A stretch of DNA of 24,247 nt from a virus. The stretch spans positions 1-24,247 of IMG/VR virus record IMGVR_UViG_3300025705_000021. One strand, written 5' to 3'. Each line of letters begins with the position of its first letter. The stretch's first letter is position 1. This document shows positions 3,799-15,945 of the stretch, piece by piece. Made by a program: the position numbers and the translations under genes. A model generated the notes under the pieces. It ran no database searches. It worked only from the letters and a program-made list of their open reading frames with translations, and had not been told where the DNA came from.

Positions 3799-5958
3799 AT
3801 GAATCCACCACCACAACTAAAACCCAGCCAATTACCACAATCTAACCTGCCTTCCCTTGCGTGGCGGGATGTAGGCATTGTATCCACCAGAGCAGGCGAT
3901 AGACACCTATTTACTGCCGCGATCCCAGATGGCTGGTGGGATTACTGGCGCGAAAACAAGGACGCGCTCAAGCAAGTGGGTGTCTCCTGCGGCAAAGATA
4001 GATCTGGGTTATGGCTCGTAACTCACTGGGGTAAAGTAAAAGATGATAGCAAAACCCCTGAGGTAGAGTTTAGCAACGACCGTGCAATTGCAAGCAAGGC
4101 TGATAAGCCTGTTGATGGCTACTCTCCCAGAGTCCCAGACGGGGTAATCCCGTTTCCTTATCAATCGGCAGGGGTGCAATACTGCCTCCCTCTAGAGCGA
4201 GCTATAATTGGTGACGACATGGGGCTGGGCAAGACATTGCAAGCGATCATGATTTGCAACGAGACCGAAGCCAAAAACGTCCTTGTCGTATGCCCTGCCT
4301 CACTCCGACTCAACTGGAAAAAGGAGTGGGAGAAGTTTGCAACATCATCACCAAGGTTTGCAGTGGTTCTGTCTGGTAAGGATGCCGCCGCCGCCGCTGA
4401 CGCAGACGTGGTTTTCGTGTCCTACGATCTACTGATTAAGCCCCCGATGCAAAAAATTGCAAGGTCGCGGGAGTGGGATGTAGTTATCGCGGATGAGGCT
4501 CATTACCTTAAAAGCCCAAAGATCAAGCGATCAACGCACCTGCTGGGTCTACCACCCAGATCGAGGATGCCTAAAGATTCCAATGGCAACGAGATCTCCC
4601 ACCCCCGCGAACCAATCCCTGCTAAACGCTGGGTCTTTCTAACAGGAACCCCGATCACGAACAAGCCTGTGGATTTTTGGAACCTTTTAAGGTTCGTTGA
4701 TGCTACGCACTTTGGGGACTACTATGCCTATTGCCAAAAGTTCTGCGATGCCCAAAAAGGGTTTGGCGGTTCGTTCGACGTTAGCGGATCATCCAATCTT
4801 TCCGAGTTGCAACAGATTATACGGGGGTCATGCATGGTTCGGCGGCTGAAGACCGATGTCCTTAAACAGCTACCCGCCAAGGTTAGGCAAATTATTGCAC
4901 TGCCTACACCCGCGAACGTGAAGCGTCAACTCGATGCTTTGACCATGGAGTCTAGCTTATCCGATGAAACAATCGACGAGATTGCTGAGGCGGCAGTTAA
5001 CGCTAAATCTGCCAACTCAACGGATGAATGGGATCAGTCGACTAGGCATTTGAGTCGGCAACAGATACATTTTGAGCAGATTGCTAAGGCGCGTGTGATA
5101 CTGGGTCTTGCCAAGGTCGATCTTGCCGTGGAGCACATCAAGTCTATCCTTGATGGGGACACGGAAAAAAAGATCTTGATCGGGGCGCATCACTCGGAGG
5201 TGATAGAACACCTTGTGGATGAATTGCAAAGCTACGGTGTCGCTTGCATCACGGGATCAACCTCTGCTATTAACCGACAGGACGCCGTAGAGCAGTTCCA
5301 GCACAACAAATCTTGTCGTGTGTTCGTTGGGAATATATTAGCGGCTGGGACGGGCATCACTTTGACTGCATCGGCACACGTTGTGTTCGTGGAGACCGAC
5401 TGGGTTCCTGCTAACAATCGGCAGTTTGAGGATCGGGTGCACCGAATCGGACAAACTGAGTCTGTGCTGATCCAGTATCTTGCAATGGACGGAACGATCG
5501 ATGCCAACATCATACAATCCAACGCCAAGAAGATCAGAGTGATCGAGTCTGCTTTGGACAAAGATCACTTTGGAGACCAGTCCCTAACCGAGGAGCAGGT
5601 TGCAACTGCAACTTCACCCCTCCAGAGGGAGCAACGATCTCCTGATCAGGAAGCGAAAGATGATAGCGAACGTCGAGCTAAGAGGCTCGCTGTTGCCGCA
5701 ATCGGTCAAGCCGCGTCCATACGCGATGTCAAGACCTCCCTGTATTGCCTTAAGCATGTCTCAGCGAAAGATGATGACGGTGCGAGGATAGTCAACGGGG
5801 TGGGCTTCAGTGGAACCGACACAGAATACGGGAGAAGGTTGGCAGATAAAAGCCAATCGGATCTCACCAACTTTGAGAAGGGCAGGGTCTTGCAACTAGC
5901 CTACAAATACAGGCGGCAAGCACCATCCCATCTTAAGGATCAATTAACGAAACCATGA
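3799..5958 (+). CDS. SNF2-family (SMARCAL1/HARP-like) DNA helicase
   Basis: A superfamily 2 ATP-dependent DNA translocase of 719 residues. Seen in order: Q-motif-like YQSAGVQY (121-128); motif I GDDMGLGKT (138-146); motif Ia VLVVCPASLRLNW (161-173); DEAH box (232-235); LTGTP (281-285); the C-terminal helicase lobe with ILIGAHHSEV and AAGTGITL; and the SNF2 hallmark DRVHRIGQTE near residue 550. SMARCAL1-like enzymes reanneal or remodel DNA forks, so a role in phage replication or recombination is likely. The last ~80 residues (NGVGFSGTDTEYGRRLA ... QLAYKYRRQ) match a small tail domain that I associate with phage and plasmid helicases. The leader before the start is gtaaacaaaaaccaaaaac and onward. 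It overlaps the next gene by ATGA. Confidence 0.92.
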   Translation: MNPPPQLKPSQLPQSNLPSLAWRDVGIVSTRAGDRHLFTAAIPDGWWDYWRENKDALKQVGVSCGKDRSGLWLVTHWGKVKDDSKTPEVEFSNDRAIASKADKPVDGYSPRVPDGVIPFPYQSAGVQYCLPLERAIIGDDMGLGKTLQAIMICNETEAKNVLVVCPASLRLNWKKEWEKFATSSPRFAVVLSGKDAAAAADADVVFVSYDLLIKPPMQKIARSREWDVVIADEAHYLKSPKIKRSTHLLGLPPRSRMPKDSNGNEISHPREPIPAKRWVFLTGTPITNKPVDFWNLLRFVDATHFGDYYAYCQKFCDAQKGFGGSFDVSGSSNLSELQQIIRGSCMVRRLKTDVLKQLPAKVRQIIALPTPANVKRQLDALTMESSLSDETIDEIAEAAVNAKSANSTDEWDQSTRHLSRQQIHFEQIAKARVILGLAKVDLAVEHIKSILDGDTEKKILIGAHHSEVIEHLVDELQSYGVACITGSTSAINRQDAVEQFQHNKSCRVFVGNILAAGTGITLTASAHVVFVETDWVPANNRQFEDRVHRIGQTESVLIQYLAMDGTIDANIIQSNAKKIRVIESALDKDHFGDQSLTEEQVATATSPLQREQRSPDQEAKDDSERRAKRLAVAAIGQAASIRDVKTSLYCLKHVSAKDDDGARIVNGVGFSGTDTEYGRRLADKSQSDLTNFEKGRVLQLAYKYRRQAPSHLKDQLTKP

Positions 5959-6146
5959 AACCAAAATACTACACGTTGCAACAAAAAAGCACAATTGAAC
6001 CGAGGTGGACGGACTGGATTGTATTCGCCATCAAGGAGGATGCAATCCATGAACTCACATCACGTCAGACCTATTATCCCCACCTCATGTGGAGAATCAA
6101 ACCAACTCAAACCCAAACACCACCACAAAAAAATGAACCTAAGTAA
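5955..6146 (+). CDS. Small protein coupled to the SNF2 helicase (63 aa)
   Basis: The start overlaps the helicase stop codon (ATGA), the classical layout for translational coupling. The sequence is rich in aromatic and charged residues (WTDWIVFAIKEDAIHEL) and ends in a Pro/Gln/Thr tail. That tail overlaps the next gene and is read from that gene's A/C-rich leader (cccaaacaccaccac), so the C-terminus may be shaped by the leader rather than by protein function. No domain recognised. Confidence 0.5.
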   Translation: MKPKYYTLQQKSTIEPRWTDWIVFAIKEDAIHELTSRQTYYPHLMWRIKPTQTQTPPQKNEPK

Positions 6147-6573
6147 ACTAAGCCGAAAGGTTACCGCCCAAATTGGGGAGACACAAGGCAATATGTTTTT
6201 CATGCGGCTCTCTCCCTTGCAAATCATGACCTTGAGTGTCACTCGAGAGATGGAGTGGCAAATCAGTAAGCAAGCCCGAGGCAAAAAAAGAAAAGGGAAA
6301 ACAGGGTTGCTGTTCGCGTCCGATGTTAGAAAGACGATTGAGTCTCTCTACGTAAAAAGTTGCAACAGCCCCTACACTTCTGCTGGATTTTGGGTTTCAA
6401 CCAACCAGTTAAAAAAAGATGGACTACTTTACGTATCCCCACATAAAAAAGGGACATCAAAACGTATGATATGTCTAACAGCCTTGGGTGAGGCTTTGTT
6501 TAAATATCCCCCATCAACTAAACTGTTTCTAACCAATGAAAAACAAACCACAACTAACAATGAAGAAAAATAA
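6133..6573 (+). CDS. Putative winged-helix DNA-binding protein (146 aa)
   Basis: The frame is open from 5995, but 6133 is the likely start because it is directly preceded by a long A/C leader (accaactcaaacccaaac ...). The C-terminal half carries a winged-helix-like signature: helix plus VSTNQLKKDGLLYVSP, a basic wing KKGTSKRM and the LTALGEALF terminal helix, as in MarR/ArsR-like folds. The N-terminal half is basic (KQARGKKRKGKTG). A role as a transcription regulator of this early region is plausible but not shown. Confidence 0.65.
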   Translation: MNLSKLSRKVTAQIGETQGNMFFMRLSPLQIMTLSVTREMEWQISKQARGKKRKGKTGLLFASDVRKTIESLYVKSCNSPYTSAGFWVSTNQLKKDGLLYVSPHKKGTSKRMICLTALGEALFKYPPSTKLFLTNEKQTTTNNEEK

Positions 6574-7048
6574 TAAAATTGAAGGATATGCATTAAGCAT
6601 TGCAAGCATAGTAAAAGCCATAACGAACCGCTCTTCGGCGATGTCTCTTTTAATACAAGCACCCATTTGGGTATTAGTCGCGCTATACTCCTACGAGCTA
6701 AAGTTGCCCGTCGTCCTGTATGTAGCCTCTTTGGCGTCATGCTACACGTTTGCATTTGCCGTCTTTTCGTTTATCGATTCGCGCAAGCACTACAAGACCG
6801 CCAGTACCGCCATAATTGAGATTGATTTGCCACACAAACGCACTGATGATAGTCAGTCACAAGTAGTTGAGCAATCTGCATCTAAAAAGACACCTAATGA
6901 ATTAATCAAAGAGATTGAGGAGATTGAGAGTAACATCGAAAAAATAACCAAGGACATTGATGAGGCTGAAAGAATCCTCGGGATCAATGAGGGTGATGGT
7001 AAAAAAGAAGATGCTTTGGACAGTTTCTTAAATAAATATAAGAATTAA
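6560..7048 (+). CDS. Small two-span membrane protein with coiled coil
   Basis: Starts exist at 6536 and 6560; 6560 follows the leader aacaaaccacaactaaca and overlaps the upstream gene by 14 nt, as the preceding pair also does. The 162-residue product has two adjacent hydrophobic segments (about residues 29-44 and 49-70: LLIQAPIWVLVALYSY, LPVVLYVASLASCYTF), then a long charged coiled coil (LIKEIEEIESNIEKITKDIDEAERIL). It is likely an inner-membrane protein with a cytoplasmic coil; superinfection exclusion or host-membrane interference is possible but unproven. It is the last gene before the terminator at 7138-7190. Confidence 0.65.
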   Translation: MKKNNKIEGYALSIASIVKAITNRSSAMSLLIQAPIWVLVALYSYELKLPVVLYVASLASCYTFAFAVFSFIDSRKHYKTASTAIIEIDLPHKRTDDSQSQVVEQSASKKTPNELIKEIEEIESNIEKITKDIDEAERILGINEGDGKKEDALDSFLNKYKN

Positions 7049-7049
7049 T

Positions 7050-7078
7050 TTGACTAATGCGGTAAAATAGAGTTTTAT
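7050..7078 (+). promoter_or_regulatory. Possible promoter for the 7085-7190 RNA
   Basis: TTGACT (7050-7055), 17-nt spacer, TTTTAT (7073-7078). The -35 is a good match and the -10 is weak. It sits 1 nt after the last stop codon of the upstream block, and a start near 7085 would give a short RNA ending at the terminator. Tentative. Confidence 0.3.
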
Positions 7079-7084
7079 TTGCCC

Positions 7085-7190
7085 AGAAAGCATTCCTTAG
7101 CGGGAGCCTACTACATATTTTTGAGGGAAACCTCACTAAACCCGACCAGAAAGTCTCCCGCTAATTTCTTTCTACTGGTCGGGTTTTTTA
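7085..7190 (+). ncRNA. Candidate pseudoknotted small RNA or leader
   Basis: TTAGCGGGAG (7097-7106) is a perfect 10-nt complement of CTCCCGCTAA (7155-7164), which lies inside the loop of the terminator hairpin (7138-7149 with 7175-7186). The two stems interleave, giving a classical pseudoknot, or two competing structures. Between them TGAGG-GAAA-CCTCA (7122-7135) forms a GNRA tetraloop hairpin. CCAGAAAG occurs twice (7083-7090 and 7146-7153), so the first copy could also compete for the terminator's 3' arm. This could be a phage small RNA or a terminator switch. No known RNA family is recognised. Confidence 0.5.
7138..7190 (+). terminator. Rho-independent terminator
   Basis: AAACCCGACCAG (7138-7149) pairs perfectly with CTGGTCGGGTTT (7175-7186), extended inside by AAAG/CTTT, and is followed by a T-rich run (gggttttttattttt). 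It ends transcription of the 1-7048 block or of the small RNA at 7085. Confidence 0.85.
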
Positions 7191-7199
7191 TTTTTAAAA

Positions 7200-7610
7200 A
7201 TATGTCTTCAAACCAATACATCAACCAAGCCTCTGACTAAGCACCAGCCATGTCGGGGCTACTCTCCCGTCTGACATATCAGGGTAGACAGTGGGCTTTA
7301 GATTGATGATTCAGATGCACTATCCTCCACTTCCCCTCTTCACGGGTAGAACCGTCGAGAGGGACGAAATTACAACGCTCAGTCAACTGGCTGGGGGGAC
7401 GTTCCAAGGGCGCGGAGTTGATAAAGGTAGCACGAAAGAAGGCTACCATGGCTTATCCGCAATAGACCCACGGAGTGCGAAACGACCGATCGAACGCGAT
7501 CTGACTTCAAAGGTTCCCTTCCTATATTCCTCTACCTTCGGGTGGGGGACTATAGGGGGATCTGCCTTTACTCCCTTCTCTCACACGATCAACCTTCATC
7601 ACAGCGTCTA
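7200..7610 (+). ncRNA. Candidate large structured RNA
   Basis: About 670 nt (7049-7718) lack a convincing gene, and 7231-7560 is packed with compatible stems: CCAGCCA/TGGCTGG (7244-7250 with 7388-7394); ATGTC/GACAT (7250-7254 with 7273-7277); CCCTCT/AGAGGG (7334-7339 with 7358-7363) enclosing ACGG/CCGT; GCGGA/TCCGC (7412-7416 with 7456-7460) enclosing GGTAGC/GCTACC (7426-7431 with 7442-7447); GATCG-AACG-CGATC (7488-7501); and a 17-bp hairpin with a UUCG loop (7518-7559). The last stem uses four G-U pairs that work only in the plus-strand RNA. Ends are not defined. It could be a free RNA or a long 5' leader of the phosphoesterase gene. Size and style recall the large ornate phage RNAs (GOLLD, ROOL), but no shared motif was identified. 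An open frame at 7291-7611 has an unconvincing product. Confidence 0.6.
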
Positions 7611-7703
7611 ACAAACATGATAGAATGGGCGAGATCGGAGATTGAGTCCATTAGGCGACAGCCTTACAGCCCTTTGTATTAGCTTGCAATACTACCTGTT
7701 TTA

Positions 7704-7718: not shown

Positions 7719-8849
7719 ATGCTAACAGTTAAACAGAAGCAGACTCTGGATCTTTACCTGAGCAATGACATGAACGCCGCGCAGACAGCAAGGGTTCTAG
7801 GTTGTAACACATCAACCGTTCAGCAGTGTCTAAAAGTGATCGAGAAAAAAGGCGTTGCACCTTGGCTGTCAAGCGCACCAAAACCAGATCATCTCGGCAT
7901 GACGAAAACCACAGTGCAATATGATGCTGACGGTAATGTTATCCAAGAATGGCGCAGGATGTCCCCAATGCTGGACAAGATGCAACATGTGGCTGATGGG
8001 CTATGCGAGCAAGTCAAAGGCAAGGGCAAGGCTAAGTCAAGACGCACACGCAAGACAGATACGGATGAGATACTGTTTGAGATCGACCTATTCGATGCAC
8101 ACGTTGGCATGTATGCGGATGAGCGCGAGACACTAGATGAAGATTATGATTGTGACATTGCATCCCGCAGAATGATTGAGGCGGCTGAGGGGATAGCAAG
8201 CAGATCAAACCGTCCCCACAAGGCGGTTTTAGTTTTTGGGGGCGACATGCTCCATTCAGACAACAGATCCAACAAGACAGAGCTAAGTGGCAACGTGCTT
8301 GACGTTGACACCAGATATCACCGAGTGGTCAACTACATTATCGCAGCTTGCCGTGATGCTGTACAGGTAGCCGCATCAATTGCAACTGAAGTTGAGGTTG
8401 TTGTGCTGGAGGGCAATCATTCGTGGCACTCTGAGGTGTGGCTAGCTCGCGTCCTTGATTCATATTATGCCAACTGCCCAAATGTCACGGTCAAACTAGA
8501 CGCATCACCTCGTAAAAAAATGGTCTTTGGCGACAATCTGCTGGTGTGGGCGCACGGTGACAAAGTAGCCGCAAACAAGTGGGCGCAGATAATCGCGGCA
8601 GAATTTCCAAAAGAATGGGGTTTAACTAAATATCGGCACATGAAGTGTGGACACATTCACCATCAAAAAAGTATAGCCCCTGTAGTAATTGATGAGCAAG
8701 CAGGATTGCTAGTAGAATACCTACCAGCATTGTGTGCCAGTGACGCTTGGCATAGTCATGCGGGATTCATCGGGTCTCAAAAAGGAGCCTGTGGATTTGA
8801 GTATCACAAAACAGCAGGATGCATCACTAGGTTTTTTAACGCTGTGTGA
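7719..8849 (+). CDS. HTH-metallophosphoesterase (SbcD/calcineurin-like)
   Basis: A 376-residue protein with an N-terminal helix-turn-helix (residues 4-40: AAQTARVLGCNTSTVQQCL) and a calcineurin-like phosphoesterase domain. The metal-binding motifs are all present: D126-x-H128 (FDAHVG), GGD (174-176), GNH (232-234), AHGD with H279, and GHIHH (311-315). Enzymes of this fold cleave phosphodiesters with two metal ions; phage members are usually thought to be DNA nucleases or DNA-processing phosphatases. ATG 7719 is used; an ATG at 7714 is out of frame and stops at once. It follows the structured RNA region, and its 3' end is repeated in diverged form at 8882-8911. Confidence 0.88.
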   Translation: MLTVKQKQTLDLYLSNDMNAAQTARVLGCNTSTVQQCLKVIEKKGVAPWLSSAPKPDHLGMTKTTVQYDADGNVIQEWRRMSPMLDKMQHVADGLCEQVKGKGKAKSRRTRKTDTDEILFEIDLFDAHVGMYADERETLDEDYDCDIASRRMIEAAEGIASRSNRPHKAVLVFGGDMLHSDNRSNKTELSGNVLDVDTRYHRVVNYIIAACRDAVQVAASIATEVEVVVLEGNHSWHSEVWLARVLDSYYANCPNVTVKLDASPRKKMVFGDNLLVWAHGDKVAANKWAQIIAAEFPKEWGLTKYRHMKCGHIHHQKSIAPVVIDEQAGLLVEYLPALCASDAWHSHAGFIGSQKGACGFEYHKTAGCITRFFNAV

Positions 8850-8881
8850 TATGCCTGTCGGATATATTTAACAATATACGA

Positions 8882-8911
8882 CGCATTGCTAGATTCTTTA
8901 ATGCTGTGTAG
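8882..8911 (+). pseudogene. Diverged second copy of the phosphoesterase 3' end
   Basis: In another frame, 33 nt after the stop codon of the phosphoesterase gene, these bases encode RIARFFNAV plus stop, against ITRFFNAV plus stop at the real end (8823-8849). Over 27 nt, 20 bases match, and nearly all differences are silent third-position changes or the swapped stop (TGA/TAG). This is what a remnant of a homologous gene looks like, not a fresh duplication. The upstream part of that copy is gone, so the intact gene probably replaced it by recombination. Confidence 0.65.
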
Positions 8912-8991: not shown

Positions 8992-10740
8992 ATGAAAAAC
9001 AACACTGAAATAAACGGCGTAACTCTACCCGCGTCCTCAATAGAGGTGTGTGGTGATAGCTTCACACTTGTCACAACACAAAATAACCCCATAAGCGACC
9101 GCATCGCCAGCCACTTAAAAATGGGAAATGGGATAATCCCTGTTGGAGCGACTGGGGAATGGGATAATGGTTTAAAACACCTCAAGACGGTCTGTTCAGC
9201 GTTACTAGATTGCTGTCTTAAAGACCTCCTCGAGCTTGAAAGCATTAGGGGAGATGAAAAAAACAACCCGCCATACCAAAACCTAGATATCCAATCTTTT
9301 TTTACACAGATGATTGGGTTCACAGAGGCGCAATTGGAAGGTAATCTGGTGTATAATTTGTGCTACACCAGCTTATCCTCCAAGGATAATGCCGAACTGC
9401 ATACGTTCGCCCAACAGTTAGCCAAGGCGTGTAATTATTTCAGATGCATCAAAGAAGTGATGATCGAGAAGCATGGGGATTCTGGTTTTACTTGCGAGGA
9501 TCTTCAATACGCCGTTGATTTTTTCGGCGGCATTGGTTTGCCTGTGTGGGCTGGAGATACGAACTTCTTTGGCTGGAATGGCGATGTGGGAATGCTCGAC
9601 GATGGAGCCTTAAGTGATCTAACCACTAAACAGGGCATGTTGAAAACCCTGCCTTACGGTGTTTTTTATATGGGACACGACAAAATTTCATCGCGCAAGA
9701 GCACGGTCATCACAGGGTTGTATAATTTTAGCGACCCAATGCACGACTCCATCCGCGAGCTACAGTGGCAAAAGCCCCTCGAGGATCTCAAATCCGAACC
9801 AGTGTCTACAAGAAAAGATCTGCGCGACATCATGGCTCAATTAGTCATTGAAAACCCAAAAGGGGATGGTAATCCTGCACACCTTATTAACGAGGGTCTT
9901 AGCCCAAATTTCAGAAGCAATGGTTATATTTCTCTCAACGGAGAGGTTTTCGAGGGATTCGCTGATATGATTAGCAAAAAGACCCAACTCTACCCCAAAG
10001 AAAAGAGCGGCAATATCTCGCATGAAGAGATTTGGACAATTGCAATTTCAGATATGGCGTCTAGACAGATAAGCATTTTCGGCTTAACACACTCCTCTAT
10101 ACTCAACAAGTTTTGTGCCGCTTATAGACTGTCTTCGACTTTAAGCACCTTACAACACAGCGAGCAAGCTTTGAAGAGGCATGGTCTTACACCTGAGTCC
10201 ATAGACGCAAACGACCTTTCCGATGAAAAAGCCACAGCCAAGATATTGGATTTGTGGTCGGATATAATGGATCAAAAGACCCCAGAGGCAATTAAGCAAG
10301 TTGCACTCTTGCGGCGCACCCCTATTACACTCAATCCAGTCTTCTCGTCCGTGGCTATTAGCGAGGTTTCAGAAAAAGGATCATCGCAACGAAGCGACTT
10401 TATTGACTACTTGAAAATAGATCTTTTACCCCACCTATCCATTGAAGAGATAGAAGTTGAGGTAGACGCAGCCCTTTGTAAAATTGCAACCCTTGCAAAC
10501 AAAAGTGTGAGAAGTAAAATCTTTAACAATAAGGATAAGGTCAAAGGTGAGATGGTGTCTCAGACAGGTAGCAAAACGATCGATGTAACGAAAATGCTGG
10601 CAGACGGCGAGGTTTCCTTGCTTGACGGAGCCAATTATAGCCACGACTGGAAGCTCAAGACCGCCTCGCTGAAAAGCAAGTTAGATCAAGCTGACGAGCA
10701 CCTCGATAATTTTATAGGGTCGCGTAAAAAGACCTCCTAA
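8992..10740 (+). CDS. Large protein of unknown function (582 aa)
   Basis: The start follows the leader acatcaacaacgtaacaac. I do not recognise this protein. It has no membrane span, signal peptide or obvious nucleotide-binding motif. Composition is that of a soluble, mostly alpha-helical protein, with cysteines scattered in the first third (CSALLDCCLKDLLEL, FRCIKEVM), an aromatic/Gly region near 180-230 (FFGGIGLPVWAGDTNFFGWNG) and a helical, charged C-terminus. It is the first gene after a dedicated promoter and dyad, and it heads the replication gene block. It may be an early host-takeover or replication protein; that is guesswork from position only. Confidence 0.8.
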   Translation: MKNNTEINGVTLPASSIEVCGDSFTLVTTQNNPISDRIASHLKMGNGIIPVGATGEWDNGLKHLKTVCSALLDCCLKDLLELESIRGDEKNNPPYQNLDIQSFFTQMIGFTEAQLEGNLVYNLCYTSLSSKDNAELHTFAQQLAKACNYFRCIKEVMIEKHGDSGFTCEDLQYAVDFFGGIGLPVWAGDTNFFGWNGDVGMLDDGALSDLTTKQGMLKTLPYGVFYMGHDKISSRKSTVITGLYNFSDPMHDSIRELQWQKPLEDLKSEPVSTRKDLRDIMAQLVIENPKGDGNPAHLINEGLSPNFRSNGYISLNGEVFEGFADMISKKTQLYPKEKSGNISHEEIWTIAISDMASRQISIFGLTHSSILNKFCAAYRLSSTLSTLQHSEQALKRHGLTPESIDANDLSDEKATAKILDLWSDIMDQKTPEAIKQVALLRRTPITLNPVFSSVAISEVSEKGSSQRSDFIDYLKIDLLPHLSIEEIEVEVDAALCKIATLANKSVRSKIFNNKDKVKGEMVSQTGSKTIDVTKMLADGEVSLLDGANYSHDWKLKTASLKSKLDQADEHLDNFIGSRKKTS

Positions 10741-14856: not shown

Positions 14857-15945
14857 ATGAAAATTGCAAACATTAAGCAACTGGCGGACAAATCGCCAGT
14901 AGACGAAATAAGGGGAGTTGTCGAGAAGCAGTATCCTCCCGCCGACCCGACCGATAACGACAAGAGGTTCAGCCAGCACCGCCAATCCATCCTTATCAAC
15001 GATGGGTCTGGGGAAAAGCTGATGATCACCTTGATGAAGGAACAGATTCACATCCTTGACCCGTGCGAAGGTAACGAGATTGTCATCTCTTCAAGCGTTA
15101 ACGAAAAAGGCGACCCCCGAGGTCTGGTCTTCAACACTTGGCAACAGGCAGGGAAGCAATATCCTAACACTGTAGTGAAGGTTTACCCCGAGGCGACGAT
15201 GCGCGTCCTGCCTGCTGGTGGATCTACACAGCAAGCCCCACAACAGCAAGCCCCACAACAGCAAACGCAAGCTCAAGCTCCACAACAGCAAGCGCAAGCT
15301 CAAGCTCCACAACAGCAAGTCCAAGCGAACGGGGTGTCTCAGTTCGATGCCGAATTGTCACTAGCCGCTCGCGGATACACCAAATGCCTAGATGTGGCTG
15401 AAGCAATCATTAACGATCGACCTCTGCTTGCTGATGACGGAGAGTCGCTACGCGCAATTGCAACCAACCTGTGGATGAGTTCCAAACACAAGGTATCGAC
15501 CATTGCTCCAGAGTTGGTTGGATCAGTAGTCCCTTTTCCAGAGAAGGGTTCGGGATCAATTCCAATGGGGGCGACACAGCAACCCCAGCAACCGCAAGAG
15601 GCGAGCAAACCTAATCGAGCAAGCGTCAAGTCGCTAAACGACATGGTCTTAGTGGAGAAGGTTCTCGCGGGACACGCCGCCGACGACGATGGTAAACTGG
15701 ACGATAACGGCAAGGCTTTTCTTGTTTTGGTTGACGAAGAGGTCGAGGATCGTGAACTGTGGGAGGACGCCTACGATGAGCTTTGTTCTAACAACTTCCT
15801 AAACAATAAAAAAGAGGTGGATGTGGTTTTTGATCAAACAGCGAAATCAACTGGACAGAAATCTCCTCAAGTCGAGCGGTTCATTGTGTGCACTCCTTGT
15901 GCATGGCGCGAGGAAGTTATTGAAGAAATCGGTCGCAACCAATAG
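14857..15945 (+). CDS. OB-fold-like protein with Gln-rich linker (SSB-like)
   Basis: 362 residues in three parts. Residues 1-120 look like an OB fold (RQSILINDGSGEKLMITLM, IVISSSVNEKGDPRGLVF), as in single-strand DNA-binding proteins. Residues 123-158 are a Gln/Ala/Pro low-complexity linker built of repeated codons for APQQQ and QAQ. The C-terminal domain (160-362) includes an Asp-rich stretch (AADDDGKLDDNGK) and an alpha/beta end (FIVCTPCAWREEVIEEI). It probably protects or organises ssDNA in replication; the C-terminal function is unknown. The start follows aacaattaaaact. Confidence 0.65.
   Translation: MKIANIKQLADKSPVDEIRGVVEKQYPPADPTDNDKRFSQHRQSILINDGSGEKLMITLMKEQIHILDPCEGNEIVISSSVNEKGDPRGLVFNTWQQAGKQYPNTVVKVYPEATMRVLPAGGSTQQAPQQQAPQQQTQAQAPQQQAQAQAPQQQVQANGVSQFDAELSLAARGYTKCLDVAEAIINDRPLLADDGESLRAIATNLWMSSKHKVSTIAPELVGSVVPFPEKGSGSIPMGATQQPQQPQEASKPNRASVKSLNDMVLVEKVLAGHAADDDGKLDDNGKAFLVLVDEEVEDRELWEDAYDELCSNNFLNNKKEVDVVFDQTAKSTGQKSPQVERFIVCTPCAWREEVIEEIGRNQ

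Follow-up and report, generated by a model that had tools for sequence, protein, structure and literature searches.

GOLLD, ROOL and OLE are large, elaborately folded non-coding RNAs, of which GOLLD and ROOL are encoded by phages or prophages and are of unknown function; the expression of GOLLD rises during phage lysis (PMC12286853). We analyzed a 520-base gene-free stretch of a bacterial virus, the predicted site of a large folded RNA that is likewise phage-encoded and non-coding. GOLLD is often over 800 nt long, whereas the RNA described here has about 400 nt. GOLLD and ROOL are frequently, but not universally, found near tRNA islands, whereas a tRNA search gave none in the window (the whole 24,247-base virus record analyzed), in the contig of the related phage L065 or in the relatives L073-L077. 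Assembly into RNA-only multimers is a further characteristic of GOLLD and ROOL. The RNA also differs from GOLLD, ROOL and OLE in being preceded by a pseudoknotted terminator and in lacking a match in Rfam.

Lambdoid put and EAR are structured phage and bacterial leader RNAs that govern the read-through of terminators, and these processive antitermination RNAs sit upstream of the terminators that they overcome. Here, in contrast, the large RNA sits after the terminator, again with no Rfam match. In the ZTP riboswitch the pseudoknot strand lies in the terminator stem, whereas at this locus it lies in the terminator loop. What the locus has in common with the ZTP riboswitch is a leader that combines a pseudoknot with an intrinsic terminator, the two probably competing during transcription (PMC10085676). 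Unlike in attenuators and riboswitches, a non-coding RNA rather than a gene comes next, and no Rfam riboswitch was matched.

Coding potential and known RNA families

The window carries plus-strand genes of replication type. No convincing coding frame was found between the end of a small gene at 7048 and the gene start at 7719, which bears out an earlier description made from the letters of the DNA only (the sequence-only reading), where an orphan large functional RNA had been proposed in a region free of any convincing protein gene. A protein-coding role would have to fall to the open frame of 106 codons at 7291-7611 or to a minus-strand frame, of which L074 has one with 196 codons. However, the codon score of the 7291-7611 frame is -0.004, whereas the 21 genes of the window that were scored range from 0.029 to 0.146, and the minus-strand frame of L074 is broken by a frameshift in L077. 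The conserved protein in the 7291-7611 frame that had been named as the counter-evidence to look for did not appear, as no protein relative of this frame was found. Judged by codon statistics and by the relatives, the frame is excluded as a gene, and coding of any kind in this region is extremely improbable.

When the window and three relatives were searched with Rfam release 15, nothing passed the gathering thresholds, and even at E up to 5 no RNA family matched in a noteworthy way. Weak matches of the relatives to miRNA, PyrG_leader and Xoo5 were below gathering, coincided with the terminator or with a hairpin situated downstream of the RNA, and were discarded. ARAGORN and Rfam detected no tmRNA, and Rfam no RNase P and no group I/II intron, in agreement with the earlier remark that the landmarks of these RNAs are missing. 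Since Rfam gave no match, the RNA does not correspond to RNase P, tmRNA, group I/II introns, GOLLD, ROOL, OLE or HEARO as modelled there; the last four had been singled out for this check.

Related phages and gene order

Using the SNF2 helicase (3799-5958) as a query, we retrieved one near relative, L065 (72%), and a two-sequence helicase profile retrieved five more at 48-51%. L065 is thus the closest phage, its helicase standing at 72% vs about 49% for L074 and L077. A DNA pattern derived from the long hairpin hpF (Table 1) led to L081, a true match that is nearly identical to L077; the other matches to this pattern, L078, L080 and L083, were due to chance. Together, five independent lineages have a gene-free stretch at the equivalent place: the window, L065, L073, L074 and the group L075/76/77/81. 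The order of helicase, a gene of the 6133-6573 type, usually one variable gene and the gene-free stretch is kept in all relatives, and in L074, L075 and L077, where the contigs continue, a gene of the 8992-10740 type (8992-type) comes next. No close relative was found among cultured phages or in the cellular genomes searched, whether bacterial or archaeal. The gene at 7719-8849 was also tried as a route to homologs and abandoned, as none of its 63 loci shared the neighborhood or the RNA.

Folding of the RNA

The features of the locus are collected in Table 1.

Table 1. Features of the RNA locus and its downstream genes in the window
Feature	Position	Strand	Basis or remark
Promoter-like TTGACT-N17-TTTTAT, immediately 3' of the preceding gene's stop codon	7050-7078	+	read from sequence; weak
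Pseudoknot strand S1, UUAGCGGGAG	7097-7106	+	pairs with 7155-7164 (10 bp)
Small hairpin UGAGG-GAAA-CCUCA, between S1 and terminator	7122-7135	+	fold
Intrinsic terminator	7138-7186	+	stem 7138-7149/7175-7186, T run to 7195
S1' in terminator loop	7155-7164	+	partner of S1
Whole structured RNA	7196-7625	+	limits approximate
5' domain hairpin, AGCCUCUGAC/GUCGGGGCU	7228-7260	+	fold
hpA, CCCUCUU.ACGG...CCGU.GAGAGGG, with C-C mismatch	7334-7363	+	fold and relatives
hpB, CUCAGUC-AACU-GGCUGGG	7378-7395	+	four double-sided changes vs L074/L077
Invariant GGGACG, directly 3' of hpB	7396-7401	+	relatives
Helix P3, GCGGA/UCCGC	7412-7416/7456-7460	+	fold and relatives; encloses hpC and AUGGCU
hpC, GGUAGC/GCUACC, inside P3	7426-7431/7442-7447	+	fold and relatives
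Invariant AUGGCU, inside P3	7448-7453	+	relatives
Conserved CGACCGA, then hairpin hpE, GAUCG-AACG-CGAUC	7483-7501	+	relatives
hpF, UUCG loop	7509-7569	+	fold and relatives
Metallophosphatase/exonuclease-like gene (phrog_704)	7719-8849	+	separates the RNA from the gene that usually follows it
Orphan gene	8992-10740	+	directly follows the RNA in L074, L075 and L077

The core at 7333-7570 folded beyond chance on the plus strand (z = -3.74; 0 of 100 shuffles), compared to z = -1.89 on the minus strand and values from -1.83 to +1.02 for four equal-length stretches of plus-strand genes. For the full 7200-7620, z was only -2.17. The gene-free stretch of L065 gave -2.86 on the plus strand vs -0.23 on the minus strand, and the z-score of L077 was weak. 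The view of 7200-7620 as a plus-strand structured RNA and not a gene holds up; to this extent the proposal of an orphan large RNA is supported, and that it is functional we infer. The 3' limit at about 7625 was set where L075 and L077 stop being near-identical, and no terminator was identified at this end. Its similar position and UGAYURA motif liken the 5' domain hairpin to P1 of L073, L074 and L077, of which it is presumably the homolog.

Most of the stems named in the sequence-only reading were recovered, among them the nested arm formed by P3 and hpC and the UUCG-capped hairpin (7515-7560), several G-U pairs of which become A-C on the minus strand. The arms of this hairpin, hpF, comprise 16 bases and 15 pairs (7521-7536/7541-7556), with four further basal pairs. 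A 7-bp long-range pairing over 144 nt, CCAGCCA at 7244 with TGGCTGG at 7388, was rejected because it shares its 3' arm with hpB, and hpB is preferred because four compensatory changes in the relatives back it. The description of the stems as mutually compatible therefore fails for these two, which exclude each other.

Conservation of the RNA core

The blocks GGGGGACTATAGGGGG, GGGACG, ATGGCT and CGACCGA are common to the window, L074 and L075/L077, in the same order. The helices around them differ in sequence. In hpB, CUCAGUC/GGCUGGG of the window is CUUGCGC/GCGCAGG in L074 and L077, with four pairs changed on both sides and pair 2 a U-G in all three lineages. P3 occurs as GCGGA/UCCGC in the window and otherwise as UCGGG/CCCGA and CCGGG/CCCGG, and its pairing was lost in slid controls; hpC occurs as GGUA/UACC in the window and as GCGA/UCGC and ACGC/GCGU. 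Inner hpA changes from ACGG/CCGU in the window to CGGG/CCCG in L074 (A-U/C-G to C-G/G-C), with the C-C mismatch below the inner pairs kept in L074, and hpE shows UCG/CGA vs GCC/GGC. Between the window and L074, 12 double-sided changes and no broken pair were counted in these helices. A further helix reads GGGAC/GUCCC in L074, GGGGC/GUCCC in L075 and GGGGC/GCCCC in L077, and L073 has GGCGG/CCGCC in place of GGCGA/UCGCC in L074.

To assess the pairing, the anchor blocks were held fixed and the remainder was shuffled 5000 times. The pairing was reached by 79 shuffles for hpB, 73 for hpC, 173 for hpE and 661 for P3, and by none for hpB, hpC and P3 jointly. A covariance model built from L074, L075 and L077 alone, with the window left out, located the window at the start of hpB (7378) and scored 10.8 bits; once the base pairs were removed from this model, the score on the window was 4.0 bits, at a one-base match. 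Structure-aware alignment with a purpose-written sparse Sankoff-type aligner gave z = 2.9 for the window with L074, 3.9 for L074 with L077 and a weak 1.65 for the window with L077. The best model match of L065 was 6.8 bits, and its structure-aware alignments to the other lineages scored no better than shuffles, so that its RNA is not alignable; L065 may have undergone a replacement or a fast divergence of the core. The alignable core thus comes from three distinct lineages, too few for R-scape-type covariation statistics. Within these lineages the comparison shows core helices maintained by compensatory changes, the outcome on which the sequence-only reading had made its stems depend.

The 3' strand of hpF, GGGGGACUAUAGGGGG (7545-7560), is invariant in the window, L074, L075, L077 and L081, and the strand opposite varies, mostly by C/U changes. 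Because one strand is invariant while the other takes mostly C/U changes, an extra constraint appears to act on the 3' strand, which is probably recognized by a further factor in addition to pairing with the opposite strand. Invariance beyond the needs of pairing, together with a position among replication genes, would also suit a DNA element of inverted repeats, such as a replication origin or another protein-binding site. Such an element would not account for the plus-strand bias in folding, for the conserved U-G pairs (hpB pair 2 among them) or for loops and an asymmetric internal loop conserved on one strand, and no turn of the GC skew occurs at 7.2 kb; we regard this explanation as very unlikely.

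A pseudoknotted terminator precedes the RNA

The best conserved part of the locus is 7097-7186, upstream of the 7200-7610 assigned to the RNA in the sequence-only reading; that extent starts too late, as the conserved unit also takes in this leader and terminator pseudoknot. At 7138-7186 a G+C-rich stem is directly followed by a T run, as in an intrinsic terminator. In all five lineages a terminator lies just before the RNA, and its loop is complementary to a segment (S1) about 30-50 nt upstream. The S1/S1' pairs are UUAGCGGGAG/CUCCCGCUAA in the window (10 bp), GGUUAGAC/GUCUAACC in L065 (8 bp), AGCAUGA/UCAUGCU in L074 (7 bp), AAGCAUGAUU/AAUCAUGCUU in L075 and L077 (10 bp) and CAAUGAAG/CUUCAUUG in L073 (8 bp). 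When the upstream stretch was shuffled 2000 times, the pairing was reached 6, 6, 174, 0 and 38 times, respectively. Among the five lineages this element has four different stem sequences. Because only L074 and L075/L077 share sequence and the other three lineages differ, it is the pairing that is kept and not the sequence; base complementarity shows a loop-to-upstream pairing conserved in five lineages.

Among 106 control terminators in unrelated loci, one had a loop pairing of at least 8 bp; this terminator, at 8559-8622 of L083, has a loop complementary over 13 nt to upstream sequence. The phages of the five lineages contain only one other loop-pairing terminator, which lies inside a gene. 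The paired part of the loop reaches to the 3' arm of the terminator, or to within one base of it, in four of the five lineages, as in loop-loop interactions. Open frames with 39-42 codons start near S1 and cross the terminator in the window (7121-7240), L074 (8722-8844), L075 (4816-4938) and L073 (4549-4677), and stop at the UGAYURA motif at the start of the RNA; such a frame is also present in L077 and not in L065. A leader peptide was rejected, as the amino acids are not conserved and the differences between L074 and L075 are mostly non-synonymous.

Putative promoter and proposed transcription unit

The promoter-like site of the window matches the -10 consensus at only 4/6 positions and has no entry in the promoter scan. 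At the equivalent place L065 has TTGACT-N16-TATATT (10/12), ending 12 nt before S1, and no promoter-like site was listed there in L077. A T7-like promoter reading of ACTATAGGG was set aside: the window has a single exact copy of this motif, and these records gave no match to a phage RNA polymerase, a result that is not exclusive because the control genomes gave none either.

The best explanation, to which we assign a probability of roughly 0.5, is that 7050-7625 constitutes one non-coding RNA unit, with its own promoter, a pseudoknotted attenuator and then the RNA. Two unrelated elements could lie side by side instead, namely a knotted terminator that serves only to end and protect the upstream operon's transcript, and an RNA transcribed from a separate promoter beyond 7190. 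The terminator is indeed strong and intrinsic and sits right behind genes, and loop pairing could protect a 3' end. However, in L073 a separate plain terminator (4468-4496) lies between the upstream gene and S1, and because that gene already has its own terminator we argue that the knotted one belongs to the RNA. In addition, the pseudoknot is kept unchanged while the preceding gene changes completely (67, 170, 183, 211 or 295 aa), and the scan listed no promoter-like site between 7190 and 7330. We consider two separate elements an unlikely account.

For the single RNA unit we propose the following course. Transcription would start at the promoter just before S1. In the nascent leader S1 would pair first with S1', since the polymerase has already released the two segments when it reaches the 3' arm of the terminator, and this pairing would close a loop around the 5' arm. 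With its 3' end held by the polymerase, the terminator stem of 11-24 bp would be topologically hindered, leading to read-through into the RNA. If S1 were occupied by something else, the terminator would form and the RNA would not be made. The sign may also be the opposite, with the pseudoknot strengthening termination. The full-length RNA of about 400 nt would then act as a compact structured RNA and would most probably bind a protein of the phage, for which the product of the following gene at 8992-10740 is the leading candidate. A terminator whose loop pairs with its leader in five lineages, in largely unrelated sequences, makes it possible to test whether RNA topology can control transcription, and would represent a conserved regulatory device tied to a structured-RNA family.

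Downstream genes

The gene at 7719-8849 is 94% identical in L002/L003, whose surroundings are unrelated, and is absent at the equivalent place in L074, L075 and L077, so that it separates the RNA and the 8992-type gene only in the window. It was probably inserted and probably does not belong to the RNA unit, and it looks like a recently moved cargo gene. The product of the orphan gene has 582 aa and homologs only in these phages (25-27% identity), no relative in Pfam, PHROG or PDB, and an AlphaFold model that is not usable (pLDDT 34). Its gene was not found in the L065 contig. The RNA core and this gene are thus both present in the window, L074 and L075/L077 and both missing in L065 (four lineages judgeable), and because they are present or missing together, the protein is the first candidate partner of the RNA.

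The same co-occurrence, with the RNA always preceding the 8992 homolog, is what a long cis-acting leader would show, in which the RNA would be a 5' untranslated leader controlling the downstream replication genes in a riboswitch-like manner or by antitermination, and the pseudoknotted terminator does resemble an attenuator. Yet in the window a 1.1-kb gene has entered between the RNA and the 8992 gene. A promoter-like sequence (8868-8895) also lies in this interval, and in L074 TTGATA-N17-TATACG was noted by eye in the corresponding interval. An attenuator would need far less structure than the roughly 400 nt that follow the terminator, and L065 keeps a structured RNA without an 8992-type gene. 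We consider a cis-acting leader rather unlikely, and favor the separate non-coding RNA unit.

In its widest form, our proposal is that phages have a new class of non-coding RNA gene, in which pairing of the terminator loop with the leader topologically blocks the gene's own terminator and so gates synthesis of the RNA, and that this RNA works with the orphan protein of the next gene; we put this forward tentatively, since we would sooner doubt than affirm the whole of it. The few large RNAs listed for phages would gain an undescribed structured-RNA family, and the next gene would supply a candidate for the partner protein. Immediate use is limited, as these phages are rare and uncultured. As a separate observation, L071 (contig 3300031607_000005, 17501-35000) contains a 22-nt tandem repeat (15371-15448) and long gene-poor stretches, each of 700-1300 nt, and shows more and longer frames if TGA is read as W.
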